A stretch of 51,179 nt of DNA from Cyclobacteriaceae bacterium. GTDB taxonomy: Bacteria; Bacteroidota; Bacteroidia; Cytophagales; Cyclobacteriaceae. The stretch is from NCBI GenBank assembly GCA_020436085.1, contig JAGQYM010000032.1, positions 1 to 51,179 on the forward strand. The letters run 5' to 3'. A program made the translations under genes and the position numbers. This document shows, piece by piece, positions 413-40,300 of this stretch. Under the pieces are notes generated by a model. The model made no database searches. It was not told the DNA's origin and was given only the letters and a program-made list of their open reading frames with translations. Within the stretch, counting starts at the first letter, position 1; each line of letters opens with the position of its first letter.

Positions 413-3367
413 TTATTTGCGGAGCAAGTCATCAAATGTGATTGAGGTGTAGTATAAAGCTCCGATATTTGGCCCGCCAAGACTCTGAATATACTTCTGG
501 TTAAATAGATTTGATCCGCCAATCTTAAGTTGTGCTTTCAGGCCGGTTAATTTCACGGATACTTGTGCATCAACTGTAGTGTATGAAGGTACCTTTCCGT
601 TGGCTGGTAGAGTGAAGGATGATTGCCACTCAAATTCAGACTGCCAGCGCATGTTCACATTAAATCCAATTTTTTCTGTGAGTTTTCTGTTTCCGAAATT
701 AAAATTCATTTTATGCTCAGGTGTATTAAACTCACTTAGAAAATTTGTGTTCACTGTATTCAATACATTCCAGTTGTAGTTTCCGCCAACAGTGTAGCCC
801 TTAGGTAGATTATAGGTTAGACCAATCACTGCACCTTGTGAGGTAACTTGCTCATCGGAGTTAGAGTAGATTTGGCTAGTATTTCCACCGATACTTCCAT
901 TTGAATTTACAATATGTGCGGTACCGTTAAGCATTGACGCATAGTTGGGACTGCCATCTGGAAGTTCGGTTGCAGTTACAATTCTAATTTGAGTAATGAA
1001 GTCATTATAAATATTGTAGTAATAGGTAAGGTCAACTAAAAGGTCTCCGCCTATTATTCCTTTGTAACCAGTTTCTATGGACTGAATTACCTCAGGCTTT
1101 ACTTTGTTGAACTCGGTATATGGAGTTAGTAAGGCTGTATTTGCTGGATTAAATATTTGTGCCTGACTAGCACCTGCGTTGAAAACAGCTGTCCTGTAGT
1201 TCTGCACGGAAAATCCTTCATAAGCAAGCGGCTGCCCTGTGGAGGAACTCCTCACCAAATTGTATTTCTCTGCATACCTTGGTAGTCCTCCTAAAAGCCT
1301 TGCTGAAATAATGTTCAAGTCAATGTGCTGCCCTTGTGTTGTGGGCAGACGGAAGCCAGTCTGATAGCTTAATCGAATATTATGATCCCTTCCAGCCTTC
1401 CACACCAGGGAGATTCTGGGGTTAAGCCTGCCTTTAAAATTTTCGTTTTTGTCGTACCGTGCCGACCCCGATAATTTGACTTTGCGGTCACCGAGCCACT
1501 TTCCAGCTTGCACATAGGCTCCATACTCCTTTATTGTGATATTTTCGTTTGCATCATCAAAAATGGTCCCGTTTGAATTAAGGTCATACATTCTAAAACT
1601 TCCACCAGCCTGAAGTTCAATACTTGTAATTTGATTTTTGAAGTCATATTGTCCTTCAATATGGTAAAGATTGCTCGCGTCCTTGAACTTTGGCCCGTCA
1701 GGAACCACTCCATTGAGTGCCTGTTTTTTTGCGTTCTCGAATTCTGCAGTACCTACAGGAAGAGGAAAACGATTATCAGTTTGCGTTCTCGCGAAATTGT
1801 GAGCCGCCTCCTGTACATTTAGGGGAATACTCACGTTATTCCCACCAACTGATGGGTCCGGATAGCCATTATCATAAAGGTATCTAAGGTAGTATATGCC
1901 ATAGGTCCCCAACCAGTTAGATACATTTCCCCCGCTTCTTATGTCTTGGAGTCGTTTTGACAAAAATTCTGTAATGTAAGAGTCTCCAGAATTTTCACGA
2001 GTAGTGTACGCTCTCACATAGAAATTATCGGCACGGATTTGTAGTCTGTGTTGCTCGATTCCAAAATTCTTCAATGAATAACGTTGTGCTCCAGTGTAGA
2101 TACTAGTTCCGAAACCTCCATTATATAGGTAGCTCAATTCTACTCTATCATTAAGGCGATAGTATAGTCCTGCATTGAACTTAATGTTCTTGGCACCGTA
2201 ATCGATCAAATCAGCTTCTTTGTACGGAGTCACAGAAACTACGTGCCCTGGAAGCCAGTCATTTTGCGCATAATTCCAAGCTGTTACCCCTGGAGCAAAA
2301 AGACCAATCCCGGAACTTGCTAAGGCTTCCCATCCAGGACCCGCAGGTGTATTTGCGCTTAATCTGAAGATTGATAATGGGATTGATGCTTCGTCCCCCA
2401 TTAGATGCAAGCCATCAGAACCTGGATTAAAACTAAATCCGCTGGGTGTTCTGGCTATTTCTCGGTCAGTAGCATCAGTACCATGCCAGTCTTCCGCCTG
2501 CATGTACGCGGCATTTAACTTAAATGCAAATTTGTTATTGAAAGCTTTTGCATACCGGATAGCCCCTTCCCATACAGGCGATGGGCCATTGAAGTCGGCA
2601 TCGCTTCCTATATGATTGAAGCCGGTCTTTGCGAATGCGCTTAACCCTTGATATTCAAATGCATTCTTACTGTTTACCAACAAGATTCCGTTAAAAGCAT
2701 TTGGTCCGTATAGGGCTGAAGATGCGCCAGGAATTAGTTCAACGCTTTCCACATCCAGCTCCGAAGGTCCGTTCAGATTTCCGATAGGAAAATTAAGGGC
2801 GGGAGCCTGTGTGTCCATCCCGTCTGTCAATTGCACAAACCTGGTATTGCCTGTTGACCCAAAACCTCGTGTATTAATAATCTGAAAATTGATGCTACTT
2901 GTGGTAACATCGACCCCCTTTAAGTTGGCAATACCTTTGTAATAATTGTCTGAGGGTGTCGTCTGTACAGCAAGAATATCCATCTTTTCAATTGATACCG
3001 GAGACTCCATTATACTCTCTTCGACTCTCGAAGCTGACACCACAACCTCCTGACCAAGGAGGGTTTCCTCTTCCATACTAAGGTCTAACGTTGTACTCGC
3101 CTCGGTAATGTCAATCTCCTGAGTTCGAAACCCGATAAACGAAACCACCATTTTCATCGGGGGAACGTCATTAACCGAAAAGTTGAACTTGCCGTTTAGG
3201 TCAGTGATCGTTCCGATCACCCTGCCTTTGATGACAATATTCACTCCCGCAAGTGGCTCACCCTTGTCGTCCTTGATTGTTCCGGAGATTTGAGTTTGCG
3301 CGAATGAGGCGGCCGAGATGAATAAAAAGATGAAAAGAAACTTGAGACTCAAGTAACATTGCTTCAT
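413..3367 (-). CDS. TonB-dependent outer-membrane receptor with carboxypeptidase-regulatory-like N-terminal domain
   Basis: 984 residues. A signal peptide ends near SFAQ (about residue 24). It is followed by a CarboxypepD_reg-like beta-sandwich (about 27-112, starting ISGTIKDDKGEPLAGVN), a plug domain (about 118-245, with NTRGFGSTGNTRF and SALYGPNAFNGI) and a long beta-barrel ending in an aromatic-rich strand near the C terminus. The length and the plug wording fit the general TonB receptor family (iron complex or organic-ligand uptake), not the SusC subgroup, because there is no SusD partner. It is the first gene of a pair with the lipoprotein hydrolase at 1-406. The ligand cannot be named from sequence. 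The start ATG directly precedes the signal peptide. Confidence 0.9.
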   Translation of the reverse strand: MKQCYLSLKFLFIFLFISAASFAQTQISGTIKDDKGEPLAGVNIVIKGRVIGTITDLNGKFNFSVNDVPPMKMVVSFIGFRTQEIDITEASTTLDLSMEEETLLGQEVVVSASRVEESIMESPVSIEKMDILAVQTTPSDNYYKGIANLKGVDVTTSSINFQIINTRGFGSTGNTRFVQLTDGMDTQAPALNFPIGNLNGPSELDVESVELIPGASSALYGPNAFNGILLVNSKNAFEYQGLSAFAKTGFNHIGSDADFNGPSPVWEGAIRYAKAFNNKFAFKLNAAYMQAEDWHGTDATDREIARTPSGFSFNPGSDGLHLMGDEASIPLSIFRLSANTPAGPGWEALASSGIGLFAPGVTAWNYAQNDWLPGHVVSVTPYKEADLIDYGAKNIKFNAGLYYRLNDRVELSYLYNGGFGTSIYTGAQRYSLKNFGIEQHRLQIRADNFYVRAYTTRENSGDSYITEFLSKRLQDIRSGGNVSNWLGTYGIYYLRYLYDNGYPDPSVGGNNVSIPLNVQEAAHNFARTQTDNRFPLPVGTAEFENAKKQALNGVVPDGPKFKDASNLYHIEGQYDFKNQITSIELQAGGSFRMYDLNSNGTIFDDANENITIKEYGAYVQAGKWLGDRKVKLSGSARYDKNENFKGRLNPRISLVWKAGRDHNIRLSYQTGFRLPTTQGQHIDLNIISARLLGGLPRYAEKYNLVRSSSTGQPLAYEGFSVQNYRTAVFNAGASQAQIFNPANTALLTPYTEFNKVKPEVIQSIETGYKGIIGGDLLVDLTYYYNIYNDFITQIRIVTATELPDGSPNYASMLNGTAHIVNSNGSIGGNTSQIYSNSDEQVTSQGAVIGLTYNLPKGYTVGGNYNWNVLNTVNTNFLSEFNTPEHKMNFNFGNRKLTEKIGFNVNMRWQSEFEWQSSFTLPANGKVPSYTTVDAQVSVKLTGLKAQLKIGGSNLFNQKYIQSLGGPNIGALYYTSITFDDLLRK

Positions 3368-3444
3368 GTTGGAGAAATTAAGGTTCTTATAAATCTACAA
3401 GAATTTGCTTAATTCCTAACGTGAGTCTCTACGCTTTTTTACGA

Positions 3445-3478
3445 GCGGGGAGGCCTTTCCCGCCTCAAAATTTTGAGG
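3445..3478. repeat. Two adjacent palindromes between gldC and the TonB receptor gene
   Basis: A near-perfect GC-rich palindrome (3445-3463, GCGGGGAGGCCTTTCCCGC, two wobble positions) abuts a perfect 16-base palindrome CCTCAAAATTTTGAGG (3463-3478). They lie just after the gldC stop codon and before the TonB receptor promoter. They could end the ftsX-to-gldC transcript or be a protein-binding site. Neither arm is followed by a clean T-run on the minus strand, so a classic terminator is not proven. Confidence 0.4.
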
Positions 3479-3493
3479 TGCTAAGCGTGAATT

Positions 3494-3820
3494 TTATCCG
3501 TTTTCCCGGACGTGTTTGGCCAGTTTTTCGCACAAATTGTTGATCTCGCTGGCCATCTTTTCATCACCTGTAGCGGTAAGCGCGCTCTGTGCAATTCCGC
3601 CAAGGCAGTCGATATAGAATCTTTTCATTTCGTCTACCGGCATGTCTTTAGTCCACAGGTCAATCCTGAGGGTATTTTTTTGAACGTGGTCCCAAAGCGA
3701 CAGGCTTATAGATTTCGTTTCGCTGAGCTCTTCTGGCTTATCGCTGGCATCCCAAATAATCTTTTCGGGTATGTTCTTTTCGTCCAGATCTATTTTGAAT
3801 TGTATGATTGACTGCTTCAT
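3494..3820 (-). CDS. gldC: Gliding motility protein GldC
   Basis: 108 residues, matching the usual GldC length of about 110. The central block LRIDLWTKDMPVDEMKRF is the hallmark of GldC, preceded by the typical opening in which a short beta strand (IIQFKIDLDEKNIPEKI) leads to WDASD. It is a soluble, probably cytoplasmic protein without signal or membrane segment. In Flavobacterium johnsoniae gldC is tied to gliding and the type IX secretion/gliding machinery, but its biochemical role is unknown. It is the last gene of a long overlapping chain; its ATG overlaps the stop of the upstream ligase gene as ATGA. Presence of gldC alone does not prove that the organism glides, since non-gliding Bacteroidota also carry it. 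Confidence 0.88.
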   Translation of the reverse strand: MKQSIIQFKIDLDEKNIPEKIIWDASDKPEELSETKSISLSLWDHVQKNTLRIDLWTKDMPVDEMKRFYIDCLGGIAQSALTATGDEKMASEINNLCEKLAKHVRENG

Positions 3821-5775
3821 GATTTAGGTTTCAAGCGTTGATTGTAAAAATCAATATAAAATTTCATTGAGTCGGGGTTTCGAAGTGCCCCTTTGTTCAC
3901 CACTTTTTCCGGGTCCCTACCCATAAAGATTTTCTTTATCGGTGCTTCCGTTTTTTTGCCGCTGATTGTGTATGGTATGTCGGGTGTGATCAGTATTTCA
4001 TCCGGCACGTGACGTGGGCTGTATGCGTCCTTGATCGCTTTCTTTATTTCGGTTTTTAGGTTATCCGAAAGTATTGCTCCTTCTGCAAGCATAACAAATA
4101 AAGGCATATAGAATTCGCCCTTATCCCGCTCGATGCAAAGAATGACGCTGTCTTTAACTTCTTTTATCTTATCTACGGCCCTGTATATTTCACTCGTACC
4201 AATCCTGACTCCTCCTCGGTTCAGGGTTGCGTCCGAGCGTCCATAGATAATGACGCCATTGTTTTCCGTGATCTCAATCCAATCGCCATGCCGCCAGACT
4301 CCTGGAAACATTTCGAAGTAGCTTTCAAAGTATCTCTCGAATTTTTCATCATTCCAAAGAAATATCGGCATCGAGGGCATGGGCTTAGTGATCACCATTT
4401 CACCCACCGATTGATTAACAACTTGACCGTCTTCGTCATAGGCGAAAAGTGAGCACCCCAACGTACGACACTGAATCTCTCCCTCGTGAACTGGCCATAG
4501 TGCATTGCCACCTACAAAGCCACTGCACACATCTGTTCCTCCGCTCATTGACGTTAGCCAGATATCAGACTTCACTTCATCATAAACCCAAGCAAAGCCC
4601 TCTGGAGGCAGTGTACTTCCAGTTGATCCGATCGCGCGAAGATTGGATAAATCAAACGACTTGCCTGGCGTAATCCCTGCCTTCATGTTGGCAAGCAGAA
4701 ATCCGGCACTCGTACCAAAGTGATTCATCTTGGTGTCCTGAGCAAACTTCCAGAGTACATTGAGGTCAGGGTAGGCGGGACTGCCATCATACAGAATCAT
4801 GATGCCCTTGCACAGCAAGCTTGCTTGAATGTGGTTCCACATCATCCACCCTGTAGTGGTGTACCAAAAACAAGTTTCTCCCGGTTGAAGATCCTTGTGG
4901 AATGTCAGGTATTTTAACTGCTCAAGTAAAATGCCTCCGTGGGAATGTGTGATCGCCTTAGGCAATCCCGTGGTTCCACTTGAGTACAGCACCCAAATTG
5001 GATGATTGAAATCGACCCTATTAAAAATGAGTGTGCCATTGGAATCTTTCATGATGTCACTCCAGTAAACACAATCAAGATCAGTGGACTTATTCTCTGA
5101 AATCAGAACGATTTTTTCAATAGAAGGAATGGCTTTCGCTACTTCTCTGACCACGTTCGTCTTGTCAAACTCCTTTCCGCCATAAAAATACTTATCAACC
5201 GCTACGAGTATTCGAGGTTCAATCTGTGCAAAGCGATCAATTACGGACTGTGTGCCAAAATCAGGTGAACAACTGGACCAAATGGCACCCTGGCAATTGG
5301 CACCCAGAAATGCAACGGTAGCTTCCGGAACGCAAGGCAAATAGGCGACCACCCGATCGCCTTCGCTTATTCCAGATTCCTGCAGGAACTTTTGAAAGGC
5401 AGAGACATCGTTTCGCAGCTGGTCCCATGTGATTTCCTGAGTTGCCTTTTTTTCACTTGCATGAATGATGGCGGTTTCTCCTGATGCAAAATTTCGAAAG
5501 ACATGTTCAGCGTAATTCAGCCTTGCGCCATCAAACCACTTGATGCCTGGCATCTGATCGGATGAACGAACAGCCTCGTAGGTTCCTTCTGATATGATTT
5601 CAAAATAATCCCACACGCATTTCCAAAAGTCGTCTATCTCATCTACCGACCATTGCCACAGTTCATCGTAGTTCTTGAAAGTGAGATCACGATGGGCTGA
5701 AAGCCAGCTCATGAATTTGGTGAGGTTGGCATTTTCAATCGACTGTTGGGTAGGTTTCCACAAAACTCGACTCAT
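3817..5775 (-). CDS. Acetoacetate--CoA ligase (acetoacetyl-CoA synthetase)
   Basis: 652 residues, the usual length of acetoacetyl-CoA synthetase. It belongs to the adenylate-forming (ANL) superfamily. The ATP-binding loop YSSGTTGLPK is at about 264-273, the A8 hinge region contains GRSDATLNRGGVRIGTSE, and the catalytic lysine lies in YTISGKKTE at about 607. The N-terminal half has W and F-rich segments (LWQWSVDEIDDFW, GIKWFDGARLNYAEH) that separate acetoacetate ligases from acetate ligases. It would activate acetoacetate with ATP and CoA to acetoacetyl-CoA in the cytoplasm, feeding lipid or ketone-body metabolism. It overlaps ribF upstream and gldC downstream by 4 bases each, so it is translationally coupled to both. 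A related short-chain acyl-CoA ligase is the main alternative. Confidence 0.88.
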   Translation of the reverse strand: MSRVLWKPTQQSIENANLTKFMSWLSAHRDLTFKNYDELWQWSVDEIDDFWKCVWDYFEIISEGTYEAVRSSDQMPGIKWFDGARLNYAEHVFRNFASGETAIIHASEKKATQEITWDQLRNDVSAFQKFLQESGISEGDRVVAYLPCVPEATVAFLGANCQGAIWSSCSPDFGTQSVIDRFAQIEPRILVAVDKYFYGGKEFDKTNVVREVAKAIPSIEKIVLISENKSTDLDCVYWSDIMKDSNGTLIFNRVDFNHPIWVLYSSGTTGLPKAITHSHGGILLEQLKYLTFHKDLQPGETCFWYTTTGWMMWNHIQASLLCKGIMILYDGSPAYPDLNVLWKFAQDTKMNHFGTSAGFLLANMKAGITPGKSFDLSNLRAIGSTGSTLPPEGFAWVYDEVKSDIWLTSMSGGTDVCSGFVGGNALWPVHEGEIQCRTLGCSLFAYDEDGQVVNQSVGEMVITKPMPSMPIFLWNDEKFERYFESYFEMFPGVWRHGDWIEITENNGVIIYGRSDATLNRGGVRIGTSEIYRAVDKIKEVKDSVILCIERDKGEFYMPLFVMLAEGAILSDNLKTEIKKAIKDAYSPRHVPDEILITPDIPYTISGKKTEAPIKKIFMGRDPEKVVNKGALRNPDSMKFYIDFYNQRLKPKS

Positions 5776-31007: not shown

Positions 31008-32506
31008 CGCGGGTTAGGTTTTAATCCAGCCACGTCTATTGCCGATGTTGGTATCTGCAACACTTTTCTTAAGTCGTCACCTTCCAACTCAATAGTGCTG
31101 CCATCTACTAAAACATGCTCTACAGGAATTTCGAAACGTTTGATATCATACCATCGCATGCCCTGAGTGATAAATTCTCTCCGTCTTTCATTGATCACAT
31201 ACTCAATCACAACTGCTCTGTTGCTAATTGTTGGAATTGTACCCACACCATAAAAATTACGCAATTCTGTTATCGTGATGGTGCTAATGTTGCCGCTGTA
31301 TCTTTTATTCGCCAACGTTTGAATGTCAGTAATCGCCTCAGTGATTCTATTTTTTTGAGCCAACGCTTCGGCTCTGTTTAAGAGTACTTCTTCACCGCGG
31401 AACATCAGTCCTATGTGATAGGGTAGGCCCACGTTGGAATTGAGGCTGCTTCGCTCGAAGAGACTTTCATACCATGCAGGGAACTGACCATTCTGACCTT
31501 TCACGAAGGATGGGTTTTCGCGCTCGTCAGTGCCACCAAATGGATTTCCACTGAATACTTCATCATATACATCACCTGTTGGTCCGTGGGCAAAATCTAC
31601 GCGCTGCACGAGCGAAATTTTCCTCATGAGAAGAAGATTACTTCTCTGTTGTGGGGAGGAATAAAGTTGAGGATATGCCTGCACAGAAGAACTGGCGGCT
31701 TGAAACTCTTCTGATGTCAGATCTCTCACGAACGATCCCGGGTCAGCTCCCAATAGGAGATTCGCGTACTCGATAACTTTATCATAGTTGCCCTTGAAGA
31801 GATAGAAACGAGTGGCGAATGCAAGTGCTGCGTTTTTATTGAAGTGATATTTTCCGGAATTGGCAAAAAAACTATCATCAACCAGTTCAATACCTTTCAG
31901 CATATCTGCTTCCACCTTGTCGTATACTTCCTGGACTGTATTCCTTTTATAAGTTTTGATGAACACTGTCTCTGGCGTTTCAACATACGGCACGCCCTGG
32001 TCGCTATCAGCGGTACTCGCGTCATAATGTTTTCCAAATAAATTGACGAGCATAAAGTGGCCGTAGGCGCGAACCAATCTCGCTTCTGATTCTACTGCTC
32101 TTTTTTTCTGCTTAAGTGCTTCTGTATCGGCAGGTAGAGAGGACAGCACGGCCAATACTTCGTTTGCATGGGCTATTGCATTGTAGGTTTGAAACCAGAA
32201 GAAGGATGGCGAGTCGCTTTCGTTGGGATCATCAACAAAATCTTGCCACTCAAACGCGCGCTGATGTATTTGCCGTATTGTAACTCCACGTGTGTAGGCT
32301 GTGTTGTCAGTCATCCAATCGGTGAATGCAGGCGATGCAACTGAGTAGGCGTTGGTAAGTAGTTGAGCGGCCTTGTCAAGGTCATTGAGTGCAACACGAT
32401 TATCGGGTGCTTCGTTGAGGAAGTCGTTGCAGCTGCCCACGAGTGCTGCTACCAACAGCAGCGACACTTTCATTATTCGATTTGATATTGGCTTACTGTT
32501 CATCAT
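31004..32506 (-). CDS. SusD/RagB-family nutrient-binding lipoprotein
   Basis: 500 residues. Lipobox LVGSC with the cysteine at 26, followed by NDFLNEAPDNRV, the classic SusD opening. TPR-like helices follow (ARLVRAYGHFMLVNLFGKHYDA; quoted part VRAYGHFMLVNLFGK), and the C-terminal blocks VIEYVINERRREFITQGMR (parts INERRREF, GMRWYDIKR) are those of RagB/SusD. It sits on the outer face of the outer membrane as the lid of the SusC transporter and binds the ligand. It overlaps the susC stop as ATGATG. The length and form are ordinary, with no sign of decay. Confidence 0.93.
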   Translation of the reverse strand: MMNSKPISNRIMKVSLLLVAALVGSCNDFLNEAPDNRVALNDLDKAAQLLTNAYSVASPAFTDWMTDNTAYTRGVTIRQIHQRAFEWQDFVDDPNESDSPSFFWFQTYNAIAHANEVLAVLSSLPADTEALKQKKRAVESEARLVRAYGHFMLVNLFGKHYDASTADSDQGVPYVETPETVFIKTYKRNTVQEVYDKVEADMLKGIELVDDSFFANSGKYHFNKNAALAFATRFYLFKGNYDKVIEYANLLLGADPGSFVRDLTSEEFQAASSSVQAYPQLYSSPQQRSNLLLMRKISLVQRVDFAHGPTGDVYDEVFSGNPFGGTDERENPSFVKGQNGQFPAWYESLFERSSLNSNVGLPYHIGLMFRGEEVLLNRAEALAQKNRITEAITDIQTLANKRYSGNISTITITELRNFYGVGTIPTISNRAVVIEYVINERRREFITQGMRWYDIKRFEIPVEHVLVDGSTIELEGDDLRKVLQIPTSAIDVAGLKPNPR

Positions 32507-35500
32507 AACCCAATATTTAATGAGACGGTGATAATTCTGGTTTGCGGCAAAGCAACGCCACCAGAACTAAAAAATTCGGGATCTTGTCCTTTCAGCGTTG
32601 CCCTGTCTGCGTAGAGTAGTGCCAGGTTTTGCCCTTCGACAGATAGATTTGCATGAGATAATCCAGCGCGTCTTGCCCAGCCGGAAGGTAGTTGGTAGGA
32701 CAGCCTTGCGGTCTTTAATCGAACATAGTCTCCGTTGGCTACTCGAACAGAACTTTTGTTGTAGAGATCATAAGCGAGCACGGCATCTGAGCTCACCTGC
32801 GCCACGCCCTGATCCAAAATTACCGGGATGTTAGTGATGTTCTCATCACCGGGAACAGCCCAACGATTGACCAAATCTCCAGGCAAGGCATCAATGTCAG
32901 AGTAAGTTCCGAAGAAGGCATCGTTCAAGCGGATCTTGTAATCGTATTTGAATGAAAGTAAGAAGCTGAAAGTGAAATTCTTGTACGTAAAAGTGTTGGT
33001 CAACCCACCTGCCCCGCGTGGTTCAGTGGGGCCTTCACAAATAAGTGTTTCAGCAAGTCCATCGCGTTCCTGCAAGTCAAGACTGAACACGGTTTCGCCA
33101 TTGCCGTCCAGGAAAGTCGGAATACCGCTGTTGTTAAGACCAACGAATTTGCTTGAGTAGAGTCCTCGTCTAGGGCCACCCAGCACAGACGCTCCTCCCT
33201 GGTTTATTGCATCAACTAGTCGTGGGCCAAAGTCGAGTCGGGTTATTTTATCTCTTGTGTAACCAAAGTTAAAATCTGTTCTCCACGAGAATTGTGGTCT
33301 TTTAAGGTTGACGGTTGAGATGGAAACCTCATATCCCTTCGCTTCCATGTCCGCAAAATTTCCTGTCTTTAACCCTTGACCACCAATACCACTGGTTTGA
33401 ACGACACCGATGAGGTCAAAAGCATTTCTGATGTAGTAGTTAAGGCTACCACTAACGCTCGCTTTCCTCAGGCTGAAGTCAAGACCAACGTTAAATTCTT
33501 TTAGCTTCTCCCACGATAATTCGGTGTTAGTTAGATCAACGATGCCAAGAACTGGTTCAACATCCGTTGGTCGAATAGTGGCGTCAGCCTGTAGATTTAG
33601 AAGTGCGCTGGCGTTAGGAGGGAGGTTACCGGAGATGCCGTACGTACCTCTGAGTTTCAGATTTTCAAAAGCATTTAAAAAAGGTGTGTTATCAAAAAAG
33701 TTTTCGTTGTGCAGATTCCATGCGCCACTCACATTCCATGTAGGTAGGTAACGAACAGCATTACTCTGGCCCAGTTGATTAGATCCATCGTAACGAGCAG
33801 TGAAGTTTCCTACGTAACGAGATTTGTAGGCGTAACCACCGTTAAAAAATAGGCCGACAAACCGATCCTTTTCATTTACTCTTGAGTAGTAGTCGATATT
33901 CTGAAGGTTGAAGAACTCAATGATCTTTGGATCAGTAATTACGATTCCACCACTTTCATAAATAACACCAAGGCCTGTTGTACTTGTCGTCAAGCGATTA
34001 GTAAATCTGATCTCTTCTCCGGCTAACACATTCACCTCATGGTTGTCACCGATCTTTTTCGACCAATTCACACTCATTCGGTTGAAGAAGTTGAGCAGGT
34101 TATTTTGATCGAGGTAGTTAAAACCTCCTTGCGGAAGTACAACTTCCGGATTCAAGCCTGGGTTATTGGGATCTCTGAACAACAGATTATTTGCATCCTG
34201 AATAAACTGTGTGCCATTTGCCCGATACGCTTCTGCCTGATTGGAACGTTCATGAACAGTATGGTCACGTTTAGTAAATGCGTAACGAGCCTGTAGTACT
34301 CCTTTGAAAGAAAGGTTTTCTTTTGGTTTTACTTCAAAATCTGTTTGTGCAGAAACGTCCGTTACGTTAATATCCATATAATTAAGATCGAGTTCTTCGA
34401 GGATATTAAATGGGGCAAAGTTTCTTCTGAAGAATTCGCGGCTACCATTATCGTCAAATGGACGGATGGAACGCGCGGTATTCAAAGCATAACTAAATGG
34501 GTTGATGTCAAATCCACGACTGAATCTACCAGTTATTGGGTCGAACTCACGGTTCCTTGTTCCGGGCACTAGCTGGTCGCGATAGCTTGCCGTCAGTTTT
34601 AAACCGAACGTGAATACATCAGATAGAAAGTAGGTGTTTCTCGCAGTTCCCGTAAATCGTTGAACCTTATCTGCAATGGTTTGTCCCTGGTCAGCCAGAT
34701 AGCTGAGTGAGTAGTAACTGTTTGATTTGTCATTTCCACTGGTGAAACTTAATGAGTGCTGTTGCTGCAGTCCGATGTCGTGAAACAGAACATTAAACCA
34801 GTCGGTGTTAGCATTTTCATATTTGTTAAGAAACTCTTCATTCAATGTGCTGCCAACACCCCAGTTGAGTTGCTTGTTGGCAATGAGGTCAAACATCTTG
34901 CCCATGGCACCATAGTTAGAAGAGCGCACGGAGGTGCTGATATCCACGATTCCTTTTTCATACAATTCGCGATAGACGGACATTTCTTGTGCGGAATTCA
35001 GCAGGTCGAATTGGTTGTAGGTAGGTCTTAGTTTGCCTGAGAAGTTTGCTGTGTAGTTGACGCGAAGAGCTCCACTCTTTCCTCGCTTTGTGGTAATGAC
35101 GATCACACCATTGGCCGCGCGCGCTCCGTAGATAGCAGTAGCTGAGGCGTCCTTTAAAACCTGGAACGACTCAATATCATCGGGATTAAGGTTGGCAACA
35201 GAAGAGCTAATTAAAGTATTGGTGTTTCCGGAGATTAGATCATCGGTGCTTACATTTGAAAGGTCCTCAAGGATTACACCATCCACGACAAACAAAGGTT
35301 GGTTGTTACCGTTGATTGATGCATTACCACGAATCCTGATTTTTGGGGATGTACCAAATGTGCCTGATACGTTGTCAACACTCACTCCGGCTATTCGTCC
35401 TTCCAACACGCGGCCTGCATCGGCCAGTCCGTCCATTTTGATTTCGGACATCTTCACATTTTCTGAGGCACCGGTGAACAGTTTTCTGTCGACTTCCTGA

Positions 35501-35850
35501 AAACCAGTTACTACAATTTCATCGAGCAGAGAAGTAGCCTCGTTGAGTGTGACATTGATAGTGGTCCGGTTATTCACTTCTTGCCGTACATACTCCATGC
35601 CCACCATTTGGAAAAGAAGCACCTGATTGCTGGCAGCGCGAATAGAGTAGGTACCGTCAAGATTAGTAACGGTACCCGTAGTGGTATTTTCTATGATAAT
35701 GGTGACCCCGGGAAGTGCAGCGCCTGAATTGTCAGTTACGGTGCCAGATACGATAATGTCGGTTTGGGCAAGAGCGCTGGATGGAATGGTAAACCACACC
35801 AGCCAGCAAACAATACTTCGTAGAACCCACGCCCATCTTCCAACACACAT
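32503..35850 (-). CDS. SusC/RagA-family TonB-linked outer-membrane transporter
   Basis: 1115 residues. The signal peptide ends near SSALAQ (about residue 29). A CarboxypepD_reg-like domain (about 32-115) begins VSGTVTDNSGAALPGVTI. The plug has FVVDGVILEDLSNV and TAIYGARAANGVIVITTKRG, both SusC hallmarks. A long beta-barrel ends in TVSLNIGL. No N-terminal FecR/secretin domain is present, so it is not the anti-sigma-linked type. It imports the large ligand bound by SusD, powered by TonB. It follows the PKD lipoprotein gene by 38 bases and overlaps susD by 4. Confidence 0.94.
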   Translation of the reverse strand: MCVGRWAWVLRSIVCWLVWFTIPSSALAQTDIIVSGTVTDNSGAALPGVTIIIENTTTGTVTNLDGTYSIRAASNQVLLFQMVGMEYVRQEVNNRTTINVTLNEATSLLDEIVVTGFQEVDRKLFTGASENVKMSEIKMDGLADAGRVLEGRIAGVSVDNVSGTFGTSPKIRIRGNASINGNNQPLFVVDGVILEDLSNVSTDDLISGNTNTLISSSVANLNPDDIESFQVLKDASATAIYGARAANGVIVITTKRGKSGALRVNYTANFSGKLRPTYNQFDLLNSAQEMSVYRELYEKGIVDISTSVRSSNYGAMGKMFDLIANKQLNWGVGSTLNEEFLNKYENANTDWFNVLFHDIGLQQQHSLSFTSGNDKSNSYYSLSYLADQGQTIADKVQRFTGTARNTYFLSDVFTFGLKLTASYRDQLVPGTRNREFDPITGRFSRGFDINPFSYALNTARSIRPFDDNGSREFFRRNFAPFNILEELDLNYMDINVTDVSAQTDFEVKPKENLSFKGVLQARYAFTKRDHTVHERSNQAEAYRANGTQFIQDANNLLFRDPNNPGLNPEVVLPQGGFNYLDQNNLLNFFNRMSVNWSKKIGDNHEVNVLAGEEIRFTNRLTTSTTGLGVIYESGGIVITDPKIIEFFNLQNIDYYSRVNEKDRFVGLFFNGGYAYKSRYVGNFTARYDGSNQLGQSNAVRYLPTWNVSGAWNLHNENFFDNTPFLNAFENLKLRGTYGISGNLPPNASALLNLQADATIRPTDVEPVLGIVDLTNTELSWEKLKEFNVGLDFSLRKASVSGSLNYYIRNAFDLIGVVQTSGIGGQGLKTGNFADMEAKGYEVSISTVNLKRPQFSWRTDFNFGYTRDKITRLDFGPRLVDAINQGGASVLGGPRRGLYSSKFVGLNNSGIPTFLDGNGETVFSLDLQERDGLAETLICEGPTEPRGAGGLTNTFTYKNFTFSFLLSFKYDYKIRLNDAFFGTYSDIDALPGDLVNRWAVPGDENITNIPVILDQGVAQVSSDAVLAYDLYNKSSVRVANGDYVRLKTARLSYQLPSGWARRAGLSHANLSVEGQNLALLYADRATLKGQDPEFFSSGGVALPQTRIITVSLNIGL

Positions 35851-36849: not shown

Positions 36850-37341
36850 CTATTGCGCACTCGCTGATTTTCTCACTCTAAACCACTTGAATTTCAGCCG
36901 ATTGAATAACGCAATTCCGATGATGGTTACTGCCACAGAAGCCAATATCACCATCCCTGAAAAGGACTGACCGGGTATTCGTGTAAGCACCTCCGAAAAG
37001 AAGGCTGCATATAAACCGACAACTGAATAGTACATAAATGTGCCATGGAGTCGTTGCCACGATTTTATTTTCTTTCTAAAGAAAACGGGAATCATTCCCC
37101 CCATTAAGGTTAGCAAGCTAAAAATGGCTGCTACATGAAATGGACCGAAGTGACCAAGTAATCCATACAACATGAAAGAACTCAGATTCATGGTGAGCAT
37201 GCAAAAGAAATAAGTGTACCCAATTGCCACATGCAATCGGGTGCCCTTGGTTTTAATTATTACAATTGTTCCGGTGAACATCGACATTAAAGCCATGATC
37301 ACATGAAACAGACCGGTGGTGCTGTGAATGATTGTTTCCAT
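36850..37341 (-). CDS. DUF2306-like membrane protein
   Basis: 163 residues with about five membrane helices (roughly 8-29, 37-58, 66-88, 99-120, 127-146). Histidines lie within or near helices (FHVIMALMSMFTG, RLHVAIGYTYFF, GPFHVAAIFSLL, QRLHGTFMYYS) in the pattern of the DUF2306 family, which is thought to be haem- or quinone-related but is not characterised. The C terminus is basic. It lies about 30 bases after the stop of the next gene cluster and has no clear partner. The region between it and the PKD gene (36663-36849) holds only the candidate promoter of the PKD gene. Confidence 0.72.
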   Translation of the reverse strand: METIIHSTTGLFHVIMALMSMFTGTIVIIKTKGTRLHVAIGYTYFFCMLTMNLSSFMLYGLLGHFGPFHVAAIFSLLTLMGGMIPVFFRKKIKSWQRLHGTFMYYSVVGLYAAFFSEVLTRIPGQSFSGMVILASVAVTIIGIALFNRLKFKWFRVRKSASAQ

Positions 37342-37369: not shown

Positions 37370-37897
37370 CTACTTCTTGACAAGGTTGAGTTCAATGAAT
37401 TTCATCCAGGTGTTACCGTCTCTCGAATATTCACCTACTTCATTCCACGATTTCTGTTTTGGATTCAACAATATCGTGTAGCGGGTTTTACCTCCGGTTG
37501 GTATGTCAAATCCCCACTCGAACTTGTTGTCATCAAGGATACGGAAGTAGGCATCAGTTGAATAACCTTCCTTTGCGTAGGACCTGAATTTGTACTGCTT
37601 TGTGAAGGGATCGAAGTTCAACACAGCAAAGGCCTGAAACTCAGTTTGACCATTTGCCTTTCCAGTTCCCTCGATCGCCAATGTGAGCCCATCAAGTTTC
37701 CACTCGATATGCTCAGTCTGATCGAGTTCTCTTTCACCTTGCTGCGTAATTACTTTGGCTTTACCCGCCCAGTCGCCTGCGAGGTAAGCAAGTTTCTGCA
37801 TGGCCTCTTTGCATTGTGGAGAGAAGTCTGGACGCTGTGCCCAGACATTAGCATTAAAAGCAACTAGTGCTCCGATTATCATGATTATTGTTTTCAT
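37370..37897 (-). CDS. Secreted DUF1579-like (lipocalin-type) protein
   Basis: 175 residues. A signal peptide ends near NVWAQ. The mature part is beta-rich: YLAGDWAGKAKV, EHIEWKLDGLTLAIEGTG, FQAFAVLNFDPFTKQYKF and FEWGFDIPTGGKTRYTI follow the order of the DUF1579/lipocalin-like family. Function is unknown; such proteins may bind small hydrophobic molecules in the periplasm. The start codon lies directly below a palindromic operator (37902-37926) that is identical in its 17-base core to one before the membrane protein/regulator operon, so this gene is probably controlled by the neighbouring winged-helix regulator. Confidence 0.72.
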   Translation of the reverse strand: MKTIIMIIGALVAFNANVWAQRPDFSPQCKEAMQKLAYLAGDWAGKAKVITQQGERELDQTEHIEWKLDGLTLAIEGTGKANGQTEFQAFAVLNFDPFTKQYKFRSYAKEGYSTDAYFRILDDNKFEWGFDIPTGGKTRYTILLNPKQKSWNEVGEYSRDGNTWMKFIELNLVKK

Positions 37898-37901
37898 ATT
37901 T

Positions 37902-37926
37902 ATAAACTGGTTTATTTTATAAACTA
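37902..37926. promoter_or_regulatory. Operator: palindromic site before the DUF1579-like gene
   Basis: GTTTAT-TTT-ATAAAC at 37910-37924, plus an extra ATAAAC half-site at 37902-37907. The 17 bases GTTTATTTTATAAACTA are identical to the site at 38882-38898 read on the other strand. It lies 4-29 bases before the ATG at 37897. Confidence 0.65.
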
Positions 37927-37941
37927 AATGGATAAAAAAAA

Positions 37942-38226
37942 TTATTTATTGATATACTGTTTCAATGCGTTCACGTAGTTTTCAAAAGCACTCAATCCTT
38001 TCTTAGTAACAGCGCATGTGGTGAGTGGCTTCTTTCCTTTAAATGATTTTGTCACTTCAATGTATCCCGCCTCTGAAAGCTTGTCTATTTGTACGCTCAG
38101 GTTTCCTGCAGTGGCACCCGTCTGCTCTTTAATGAACGTGAACTCCGCTGAATCGACACTCATCAACAATGACATGATGGCCAGCCTCAATTGTGAATGA
38201 AGTAGTGGATCGAGTTCTTTAAACAT
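37942..38226 (-). CDS. Winged-helix transcriptional regulator
   Basis: 94 residues. The fold is a short MarR/ArsR-like winged helix: LHSQLRLAIMSLLMS (helix 1), FTFIKEQTGATAGNLSVQ with the recognition helix NLSVQIDKLSEAGY, then the wing EVTKSFKGKKPLTTCAVTKKG and a C-terminal dimer helix FENYVNALKQYI. This matches the small HTH_34-type winged-helix family. It is coupled to the membrane protein gene upstream by an 8-base overlap. Two copies of the same palindrome flank its neighbours, so autoregulation and control of the adjacent secreted protein are likely. One cysteine (TTCAV) in the wing could sense redox, but this is speculation. Confidence 0.88.
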   Translation of the reverse strand: MFKELDPLLHSQLRLAIMSLLMSVDSAEFTFIKEQTGATAGNLSVQIDKLSEAGYIEVTKSFKGKKPLTTCAVTKKGLSAFENYVNALKQYINK

Positions 38227-38803
38227 TTTTTTCGCGCATGTTCTTTAATAAATAACCTGGAATAAGGTAGCCACAACCGATAGCAACCGCTCCAACCAGA
38301 TATTGATTTAGAGGACTCACTAAAAAGCAGAGAATTCCGAAAGCATAAAAACTAATGCCCCCCATCATCAATGGTCTGAACCGTAATATGATTCCCGTAA
38401 GGAATGTCGGCACTGAGGTAATCACTAGCACAACTGGATTGACATTGAATCCAATGTTTTGCATAAATATTATAAAAGGAAGGATGCTGAAGCCATAGCT
38501 GATCCACATCCACATATTGATTTTATCCAAGTGTGTTTTCTTGCCAGCCTTACGACCTTGCTTTGATCCATAGATCATGGTTATAATCCAGGCTGGGATT
38601 GCTATTAACCACACAGCATATGGGTAGGGGAAGTCAGTGAACTTGTATAGGCCATACATTCCCAAATTGGCTAACAGAATGGCCCAGCCCCAAAGGATAA
38701 AGTAGAAGCTATTGTTCAGCAGATTGCCCTGTGCCTGCCTGATCATGGTCTGAATCAGGTCCAGGCTCTGTTGAGGGGAAAAATCGTTGGTTTCAGTGCT
38801 CAT
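38219..38803 (-). CDS. Multi-pass membrane protein paired with winged-helix regulator
   Basis: 194 residues. A cytoplasmic helix (QQSLDLIQTMIRQAQGN) precedes about five or six membrane helices (roughly 30-52, 62-78, 97-112, 120-140, 145-160, 165-182). The wording (SFYFILWGWAILLANLG, YPYAVWLIAIPAW, GYLIPGYLLK) is seen in Bacteroidota proteins always found before a small winged-helix regulator. Function is unknown; a sensor or transporter coupled to the regulator is plausible. The gene has a perfect -7 element (TATATTTG) and an operator just upstream. Confidence 0.75.
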   Translation of the reverse strand: MSTETNDFSPQQSLDLIQTMIRQAQGNLLNNSFYFILWGWAILLANLGMYGLYKFTDFPYPYAVWLIAIPAWIITMIYGSKQGRKAGKKTHLDKINMWMWISYGFSILPFIIFMQNIGFNVNPVVLVITSVPTFLTGIILRFRPLMMGGISFYAFGILCFLVSPLNQYLVGAVAIGCGYLIPGYLLKNMREKNV

Positions 38804-38870
38804 ATTTGTTTTGATTGATTTTTGGCCTCAAAAACCCTGTTTTCGAGCCTCATTACTCCCTTATACGGAA

Positions 38871-38878
38871 CAAATATA
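38871..38878 (-). promoter_or_regulatory. -7 promoter element (TATATTTG) of the membrane protein/regulator operon
   Basis: Exact TAnnTTTG match on the minus strand, 68 bases before the ATG at 38803. The palindromic operator lies directly upstream of it, in the -33 to -10 spacer. Confidence 0.6.
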
Positions 38879-38881
38879 AAG

Positions 38882-38900
38882 TAGTTTATAAAATAAACTA
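38882..38900. promoter_or_regulatory. Operator: 19-base palindrome overlapping the regulator promoter
   Basis: TAGTTTATAAAATAAACTA is a perfect inverted repeat (GTTTAT-AAA-ATAAAC with TA flanks). It sits between the expected -33 and -7 boxes of the operon, the place where a bound repressor would block RNA polymerase. Its minus-strand core equals the site at 37910-37926. Confidence 0.7.
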
Positions 38901-38943
38901 AAATGTTTTAAAGAATTATGAATTAGAAATGTTTCTAGATGGC

Positions 38944-38993: not shown

Positions 38994-40163
38994 TTACTTC
39001 CAATCAAAATTTAGAGCCCTGGCTTTTTCCCGAATGGCTTTGATCATAGCGGCATCCAGCATCGAGTCATCATTTTCGTTGGTGCTATGAGAGGCGATAT
39101 ATTCCTGACGCTTCTTATTCAGTGCTTGAATTTCATTTTGAATTTTCTTTCGTTCTTCAGCCTTTTGAGCCACGTACTTTGTGCGTTGTTCCGTAGACAT
39201 TCCCTGCATTTCTGGAGGAAGCTCTTGCGCAGGTGCAGACGCGATGATCTCTTCATCCTCTTTCGCTGCATCGACTAAATCCCATGAAGAGTTTTTATAA
39301 GCATGCGAACTTTTTGAAACAGCTCTCTCCACTTTATTGGCCTGGCCATAACTCTCAGCATTTCTGTCCTGCGTAGCCTGGGCAGCTTTCTTTTGCTCGC
39401 CTGATGCACCGTAATAAAGATAAGTCTTGTTGAGACGCTCATTGCAAGAAGCGATCTGATCGTCATAGGGTGTAGCGATATATACAGTTTTACGATTCTG
39501 CTCAATGCTCATGTAACTTCCACCCGCGATGTCGGCACCATCTTTCCAACTGGTTCTCATTCCTTCATCAAAGTTTCCGCAGAAGATCGTGTTCACTACG
39601 ACACCTTTTTCTTTTGCTACACCACATGCCAGGCGATACGAAACTGATCCTTGTGTGAATGGTTCGTTCCCAGCAATGAAAATCATTTTCAAATCGGCAG
39701 GAGAGGTCGACCATGAAAGCTGGTTAAGTGAAGTTTTGATCACCTGACCGCAAAACTCGTTACCTCCGTTGGTTGACAATGCAAACAGCTTTTCTGAGAT
39801 AAGATCTAGGTCATCTGTTAATCCACTAACCTGCCGAATGTAGCCTTCAGAAGAGGGGAGCCCGTCATTGCCATATTCATACAAGGCAATTTTGATACTG
39901 GGTCTCGATCCATCTCCGCATTTTGCCGCTGCCAGTTCATTCACAATTTTCCATAGCTGAGATTTGGCCTGGTCGATGAGGCCGTCCATACTGTTGCTGG
40001 TATCCAACAACAAAGCCAGCATGATTCGCTGATCTTTTGCGGGGCTCTTTACCGGTAAACACTTTTCTGTGTGAATGGATTTGAATCCCGTTCCGATGAT
40101 GACAGCAAACATCACGAAGACTAGCTTCACTATCCTTGGAATCATTTTGTTTCTGGTTTTCAT
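38994..40163 (-). CDS. Von Willebrand factor A domain protein, exported
   Basis: 389 residues from the ATG at 40163; other ATGs at 40217 and 40145 are possible. A hydrophobic signal (about 10-32) comes first. The VWA domain (about 45-225) has the metal-binding MIDAS motif DTSNS in ALLLDTSNSMDG; NGGNEFCG and AGNEPFTQGS continue the fold. After it lie a spacer and a C-terminal coiled coil (AEERKKIQNEIQALNKKRQE). The metal site looks complete. VWA proteins usually bind partner proteins, often in MoxR-type maturation systems, but no MoxR gene is nearby. The function here is unknown. It ends at a strong terminator. Confidence 0.82.
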   Translation of the reverse strand: MKTRNKMIPRIVKLVFVMFAVIIGTGFKSIHTEKCLPVKSPAKDQRIMLALLLDTSNSMDGLIDQAKSQLWKIVNELAAAKCGDGSRPSIKIALYEYGNDGLPSSEGYIRQVSGLTDDLDLISEKLFALSTNGGNEFCGQVIKTSLNQLSWSTSPADLKMIFIAGNEPFTQGSVSYRLACGVAKEKGVVVNTIFCGNFDEGMRTSWKDGADIAGGSYMSIEQNRKTVYIATPYDDQIASCNERLNKTYLYYGASGEQKKAAQATQDRNAESYGQANKVERAVSKSSHAYKNSSWDLVDAAKEDEEIIASAPAQELPPEMQGMSTEQRTKYVAQKAEERKKIQNEIQALNKKRQEYIASHSTNENDDSMLDAAMIKAIREKARALNFDWK

Positions 40164-40300
40164 AATTCTGATGGTTTGAATTTTGACTATAGGATGCAAC
40201 CGCCAGTCAGATTCCATACCGTCAAAGCAGAAATTTTGAAAATGGGCCGTTGAGACTAAAAAAGGCCTATTTTAATTAACAAGAGATGTAGTGTTCTAGA

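Follow-up and report, generated by a model that had tools for sequence, protein, structure and literature searches.

Two copies of a palindromic operator flank a winged-helix regulator gene in Bacteroidia, the downstream copy behind a conserved T-tract

A small gene module in a 51,179-nucleotide stretch of a Cyclobacteriaceae genome (contig JAGQYM010000032.1 of GCA_020436085.1; hereafter the window) carries two copies of one palindromic operator. The first, O1, lies in the promoter of an operon for a membrane protein (MEM) and an HTH_34 winged-helix regulator, and the second, O2, lies between the regulator gene and a DUF1579-like gene, behind a tract of T residues. What the DNA itself shows is the pair of operators with their register, the T-tract, and the conservation of all these features as a set. 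From this arrangement the regulator very probably acts at both operators, and O2 is likely to act after initiation. We favour, on balance, a reading of the module as a dedicated self-repressing switch with a block of initiation at O1 and of elongation at O2; for T-tract-assisted roadblock termination as the means employed at O2, the chances appear about even.

The module in the window consists of four genes, all on the minus strand: MEM (38219..38803, 194 aa), which shares 8 nt with the regulator gene; the HTH_34 (PF13601) winged-helix regulator (37942..38226, 94 aa); a DUF1579-like secreted protein (37370..37897, 175 aa), the first gene after O2; and a DUF2306 membrane protein (36850..37341), which is likely co-transcribed with the DUF1579-like gene ahead of it and whose protein cluster was found in nine loci, counting the window. 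The 175-aa product falls just below the Pfam gathering score of DUF1579 (24 bits vs 25.2) and is therefore labelled DUF1579-like. On the same strand, a von Willebrand A-domain protein gene lies upstream of the module (38994-40217), and downstream of it (32503-35850) there is a gene that, by reading alone, resembles one for a SusC-type TonB receptor.

The regulator had been described as a 94-residue winged-helix protein from its sequence alone, and the Pfam match agrees with this, at 115 bits against an HTH_34 cut-off of 27. The protein is highly conserved (mean column identity 76% across 52 sequences), and its structural model (pLDDT 95.5) matches the solved HTH_34 member PH1061 (1ub9) with a TM-score of 0.83. 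It missed the cut-offs of the ArsR/SmtB metalloregulators (NCBIfam HTH_metalloreg, 19.1 bits vs 55) and of MarR in Pfam (18 bits vs 24.6); the MarR-like fold is similar. The model of MEM (pLDDT 91.6) comprises an N-terminal helix (10-29) with a conserved ESLxLIxxMIxxAK motif and six long helices, which presumably span the membrane. Searches of MEM against Pfam and NCBIfam assigned no family, the only hits being weak ones, in 1-2 of the 57 members and none of them to SdpI, and a structure search returned no match with an E value under 0.26 and no solved fold with confidence.

As first described, the 17-mer GTTTATTTTATAAACTA is located at 37910-37926 on the plus strand and at 38882-38898 on the minus strand. 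Because the two occurrences of this 17-mer are on different strands, its final two bases merely follow from the palindromy, and the palindrome itself, GTTTATTTTATAAAC (GTTTAT-N3-ATAAAC), measures 15 bp. Its two exact copies on the minus strand are O1 (38884..38898), ahead of MEM and in the same register as in orthologous loci, and O2 (37910..37924), which is 12 nt upstream of the DUF1579-like start codon and has no promoter elements. An extra half-site had been attributed to the copy before the DUF1579-like gene; it is indeed present there (GTTTAT, 37902..37907, minus strand), but O1 has one as well (CTTTAT, 38876..38881, minus strand), which overlaps the -7 promoter element and whose columns are conserved. 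In operon direction, the sites thus continue as ATAAAC-TA-CTTTAT at O1 and ATAAAC-CA-GTTTAT at O2.

The whole-genome search proposed in the preliminary description found the module pair alone, not scattered copies: GTTTATNNNATAAAC has two exact matches in the window and two in the whole genome of 4,417,838 bases, both at the module, while its reversed control pattern has none. We reject a genome-wide regulon for this host genome, where even the relaxed pattern GTTTAYNNNRTAAAC matches only three times. Generic repeat noise is rejected as well, given the two exact copies and the near-absence of the palindrome in shuffles of relatives' loci, and so is an RNA hairpin formed by the palindrome, because O1 lies upstream of the expected transcription start. 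In many of 146 relatives the reversed control matched as often as the relaxed pattern or more often, so that most scattered sites there represent background.

Conservation was assessed in two sets of loci. For the first, one genome per species was scanned, and the best 80 of 210 regulator-relative stretches were taken together with the window (81 loci); for the second, 80 loci were collected from genomes sampled throughout the class. A site was defined by at least 11 of 12 palindrome positions anywhere in the fetched stretch, and three dinucleotide shuffles of each set served as control. At least one site was present in 78 of the 81 loci (127 sites; 3, 2 and 0 in the shuffles) and in 65 of the 80 (78 sites; 2, 6 and 2 in the shuffles). 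Both sets share some genomes, and removing duplicate site contexts left 200 distinct ones (127 + 78 before). Gene calls were crude (longest ORF wins) and grouped the regulator in 70/81 loci, and regulator positions were redone by tblastn. The consensus in operon direction is about GTTTAY-N3-RTAAAC-YA-NTTTAY for both classes of site, with N mostly G in O2. The comparison of orthologous clusters, which had been put forward together with the genome search, hence revealed strong conservation of the operators in relatives. The regulator itself was detected at E <= 1e-22 in 102 of 395 genomes of the class.

No site was found in 15/80 class-set loci or in L091, L092 and L111 of the first 81. Since L092 and L111 (region around 2500-4000) contain no GTTTAT-type site, the operator may have changed there. 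L092 also has two tandem MEM-like genes ahead of the regulator. Another locus, L105, stands on a contig titled Alphaproteobacteria and pairs on the tree with the Bacteroidales locus L099; it is probably a mis-binned contig.

PMC7366714 gives the Bacteroidota promoter consensus as TAnnTTTG at -7 and TTTG near -33, the latter not found in Flavobacterium johnsoniae, and PMC9723704 likewise reports the -7 consensus. O1 lies between the two elements of the MEM/regulator promoter, the -7 element TATATTTG (38871..38878, minus strand) and the -33 position (38899..38902, minus strand). The location of one site in the spacer of a TAnnTTTG promoter was therefore correctly recognised at the outset, although the -33 element is degenerate here (TTTA). 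In the first set, an exact TAnnTTTG follows 57 of the 127 sites at a distance of up to 25 nt, with an offset of precisely +5 in 53 cases, and TTTG stands immediately ahead of the site in 47 of these 57. A repressor on O1 would cover the promoter spacer, and O1 is, judging by its position, the presumed site of initiation repression. T-runs ending 8-13 bp ahead of promoter-type sites occur as well (9 vs 0.67 expected; 106 sites); at some O1 sites in other orders (L179, L180, L184, L186), a hairpin and a T-run end 9-11 bp ahead, close to the O2 spacing, and this is probably the terminator of an upstream gene.

At O2, the window shows a feature absent from the preliminary description: a T8 tract on the operon strand (37934..37941, minus strand), immediately past the regulator stop codon and separated from the operator by a 9-bp linker (37925..37933, minus strand), the middle of which is poorly conserved among the sequences compared. 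Among the other 70 of the 127 sites, 46 are preceded by six or more consecutive T that end 8-12 bp upstream, in 34 cases at exactly 9. By reading, the leftover 24 comprise 17 O1 sites whose -7 element is degenerate, four O2-like sites with a shorter tract (L041, L048, L110) or none (L101, where the site precedes a receptor gene), two ahead of a DUF1579-like gene that itself precedes MEM (L068, L079) and one within a coding sequence (L046). In the host genome, the TAA-T6 tract together with the operator is found only at the module; TAATTTTTTTT alone is found 10 times.

A subset of 37 of the 127 first-set sites lies behind the regulator gene. All 37 have T at -13 to -10 and the TTTA of the third half-site; positions -8 to -6 are near random, and conservation extends to an ATT at -5 to -3. 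TAnnTTTG within 25 nt was detected in 0/37. The third half-site is thus kept without any -7 element and is no promoter relic. A run of at least five T follows the regulator stop codon in 36/37 loci with O2 vs 2/44 without (Fisher 1.9e-19, relatedness ignored). On the tree, O2 changes at least eight times, and the tract follows in the same direction in a mean of 4.9 of 5 independent supported pairs, a number of pairs too small to reach significance (p 0.0625). Four loci (L034, L045, L057, L075) have the DUF1579-like gene directly behind the regulator, with neither O2 nor tract. O2 and tract could have been lost together through one small deletion, and one deletion per locus could account for the joint loss in these four.

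The preliminary description proposed that the regulator represses both its own operon and the adjacent gene. The conserved operator pair, at the own promoter and ahead of the adjacent gene, supports this pairing, but not the repression of a DUF1579-like promoter at O2: as the O2 copies lack TAnnTTTG and follow a T-tract within a series of genes read in one direction, an effect of O2 on elongation is the likelier one.

What follows O2 differs between loci. According to a Pfam run on representatives, the first gene in the 37 loci encodes a DUF1579-like protein in 11, a TPR protein in 11, an alpha/beta hydrolase in five, an unnamed family of 213 aa in five, small ORFs in four and a DUF2306 protein in one; the TPR-protein gene usually precedes a TonB-dependent receptor gene. 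The lipocalin-like DUF1579 gene, initially regarded as a member of the module, is accordingly no fixed partner, with another gene after O2 in 26/37 loci. Many of the encoded proteins look like envelope or secreted proteins.

A different layout was found in ten Bacteroidales-type loci (L077, L082, L084, L085, L090, L095, L096, L104, L229, L237; for L229, L237 and L104 the label is based on layout and sequence) and in Larkinella (L110), where O2 lies 67-81 bp past O1 with the T-tract between them. The arrangement in Parabacteroides faecis (L077) is O1, leader, O2, 2TM, DUF2141, outer-membrane protein, MEM and regulator. In nine of these 11 leader loci, a hairpin of -6.9 to -12.7 kcal/mol ends at most one base from the tract; the exceptions are L085, whose predicted minimum is another structure, and L110, with a weaker hairpin (-5.9). 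Hairpin arms vary by lineage (for instance GUGUAAG/CUUGCAC, GCAAAGA/UCUUUGC, AACAAG/CUUGUU, GUGCAAC/GUUGCAC), and z-scores against shuffles range from about -4 to -0.1, so that single cases are unequal in strength. The gap from tract to O2 is 9-12 bp. Between O1 and O2, most aligned loci share a conserved stretch, about GAGAAATGCGCAGCTC (218-283 in L077 and equivalents), which exceeds the needs of a plain terminator and may have a role of its own.

Including further contexts other than post-regulator ones, structures with dG <= -6 are found beside the tract in 18/44. Behind the regulator gene, a hairpin precedes only 1/33 tracts, and the fold of the window contains none before its tract (z +1.19). 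The tract of the window and its nearest relatives is therefore no ordinary intrinsic terminator. In the three regions given to it, a simple terminator scanner reported none; it accepts loops of up to 8, and the leader loops are longer.

The host genome contains a second HTH_34 gene, 34% identical to the first, in the order MEM2-HTH_34'-CreD (L259; G000 contig C112, 54487-55467). We read 60 such loci, none of which has a GTTTAT-type site. Their operator is CTTT-N7-AAAGTACTTT, with the geometry TTT-N7-AAA-N4-TTT of the main module. Its exact form is present twice in the host genome, both times at the paralogous module, and a 13-of-14 match was seen in only 2/161 main loci. The operator lies upstream of MEM2 (O1') in 48/60 loci, overlapping an exact TAnnTTTG in 29 of the 48, and behind the regulator stop codon (O2') in 44/60. 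Profile comparison shows a relationship between MEM and MEM2 (probability 88.9, E 2.4e-6, 188 columns). Altogether, the paralogue resembles the main module in gene order, operator geometry, two operator copies per genome, the downstream T-tract and related membrane proteins; it differs in the half-site (CTTT vs GTTT), in the overlap of O1' with the -7 element and in its effector, CreD.

Comparing 51 upstream and 51 downstream paralogue sites, of which at least one downstream site (L294) is probably a chance match, TTT at -12 to -10 occurs in 48 downstream vs 4 upstream, and an all-A/T stretch from -17 to -10 in 46 vs 5. Conversely, the promoter G at +4 occurs in 49 upstream vs 18 downstream sites and the full TAnnTTTG in 28 vs 3. 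The tract accompanies the downstream copy and rarely the upstream one, which ties it to the transcribed copy and not to the operator itself. About half of the paralogue tracts are AAAATTTT-like, with 3-4 T, and a T-run of at least five is only weakly tied to O2' (23/44 vs 3/16, p 0.037). The gap of 9 bp recurs in 30/44. Two diverged paralogous modules of one genome, each with its own operator, have hence retained the layout of T-tract and O2. This contrast between first and second operator, present in both modules, disfavours a promoter role of O2 and also a mere aid to binding there.

Three other readings of the tract were weighed against an elongation block. It might be an A-tract in terms of DNA shape, which aids the repressor, a second dimer or looping between O1 and O2, so that O2 would mainly reinforce repression at O1; the nearly constant spacing of 9 bp, the conserved ATT and the AnTm tracts that stand in for T-runs in many paralogue loci would all fit. 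However, T7 and A7 should bend alike, yet at gap 9 the 93 non-promoter sites have T7 in 31 cases and A7 in none, and this reading also leaves the hairpins before the tract in other lineages unaccounted for. A part of the binding site, moreover, should accompany O1 and O1', most of which have no tract (4/51 of O1'; nine T-runs among the 106 promoter-type sites), and such a role is disfavoured on this ground. We regard the DNA-shape reading as rather unlikely.

Alternatively, the tract could serve on its own as a terminator or RNA-processing signal for the mRNA of sensor and regulator, the O2 spacing simply reflecting a short intergenic region. Its position a few bases past the stop codon in O2 loci and the generally short spacer suit this explanation, which we nevertheless judge unlikely: the linker sequence varies, yet its length is 9 bp in 34/46; the tract is absent in 42/44 loci without O2; and the spacing recurs in the paralogue and, at a similar 9-12 bp, in the leader terminators. 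That O2 is a conventional operator controlling a weak or atypical promoter of the downstream gene, with the tract as its A/T-rich upstream element, appears improbable despite a first ATG 6-20 nt past O2 in 35/37 loci and the T-runs ahead of some promoter-type O1 sites, since the -7 consensus is missing throughout, TTG takes the -33 place in just 2/46 T-tract sites and the paralogue shows the same contrast of promoter elements.

Under the two-operator switch that we prefer, one promoter would yield both MEM and the winged-helix protein, and the latter would bind the three-half-site operator in two copies. We infer binding, repression, elongation block and sensing from the layout described above. 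Protein on O2 would meet polymerase arriving through the regulator gene, and the polymerase would stall near the tract, about 10-16 bp before O2, on a weak all-A/U RNA-DNA hybrid; transcription would then end short of the target gene unless the repressor let go. O2 would in this way give the effector genes a higher threshold than sensor and regulator, resulting in a two-step switch in which sensor and regulator come first and the effectors only upon fuller repressor release. The sensor would be MEM. By analogy, MEM probably controls the repressor and may hold it at the membrane on a signal, via its conserved N-terminal helix.

The module is found in many Bacteroidia and provides a conserved operator that can be searched for. 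It couples an unnamed membrane-protein family to this operator, places a series of effectors under a common logic and shows two distinct repressor-operator pairs in one genome. The four operator sequences were absent from the papers searched, and a search for PF13601 with Bacteroidetes gave no match. Among the matches listed, searches for HTH_34, DUF2141, CreD and AAAGTACTTT returned nothing on the module, its operator, its paired membrane protein or the two-site layout. For PH1061, we know of no function.

A familiar counterpart is SdpR/SdpI of Bacillus subtilis, in which a multi-pass protein keeps an autorepressor at the membrane. The likeness, drawn from sequence and model, lies in a small winged-helix regulator and a multi-pass membrane protein in one operon (the genes overlap, the helices are modelled and co-transcription is presumed) and in an operator at the own promoter, according to position and conservation. 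Gene order differs between the two systems, and the membrane protein described here belongs to another family and is accompanied by a second operator with a T-tract.

Repressor roadblocks in bacteria are cited for LacI, PurR, GalR, ArsR, CcpA and CodY in PMC10310618, which describes Mfd as a major factor in termination at a LacI roadblock. O2 resembles these in lying downstream of the start site, where an elongating polymerase would collide with a bound protein. It differs in the conserved T-tract at fixed spacing, a feature not mentioned in the passages of PMC10310618 on such roadblocks.

The closest parallel to the tract comes from RNA polymerase I. As described in PMC12366685, a roadblock halts this polymerase within T-rich DNA that lies 15 bp upstream of the bound site; the T-rich DNA weakens the hybrid and promotes backtracking, and release in that study also required an RNA hairpin. 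Like the Pol I terminator with its T-rich stretch and Reb1/Nsi1/TTF1 site, the module has a run of T on the RNA-like strand at a fixed short distance from the site of the putative repressor; the T-rich stretch is found at -13 to -10 in all 37 O2 sites and at -12 to -10 in 48/51 paralogue sites. The hairpin of the Pol I system is missing in the window and in 32/33 post-regulator tracts, and present before the tract in some lineages. In other respects, too, the module differs: the polymerase is bacterial, a signal could trigger release of the putative repressor, and termination is here a proposal. We tentatively suggest, at somewhat less than even chances, that T-tract and O2 act as a terminator gated by a protein and serving as a gene switch, a bacterial equivalent of the T-rich/Reb1 terminator of Pol I: a repressor sitting roughly one helical turn further downstream would halt polymerase on an A/U-only hybrid and end transcription, until the membrane sensor released the repressor. 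If this is true, bacteria use a roadblock together with a T-tract as a regulated stop, similar to termination by eukaryotic RNA polymerase I.
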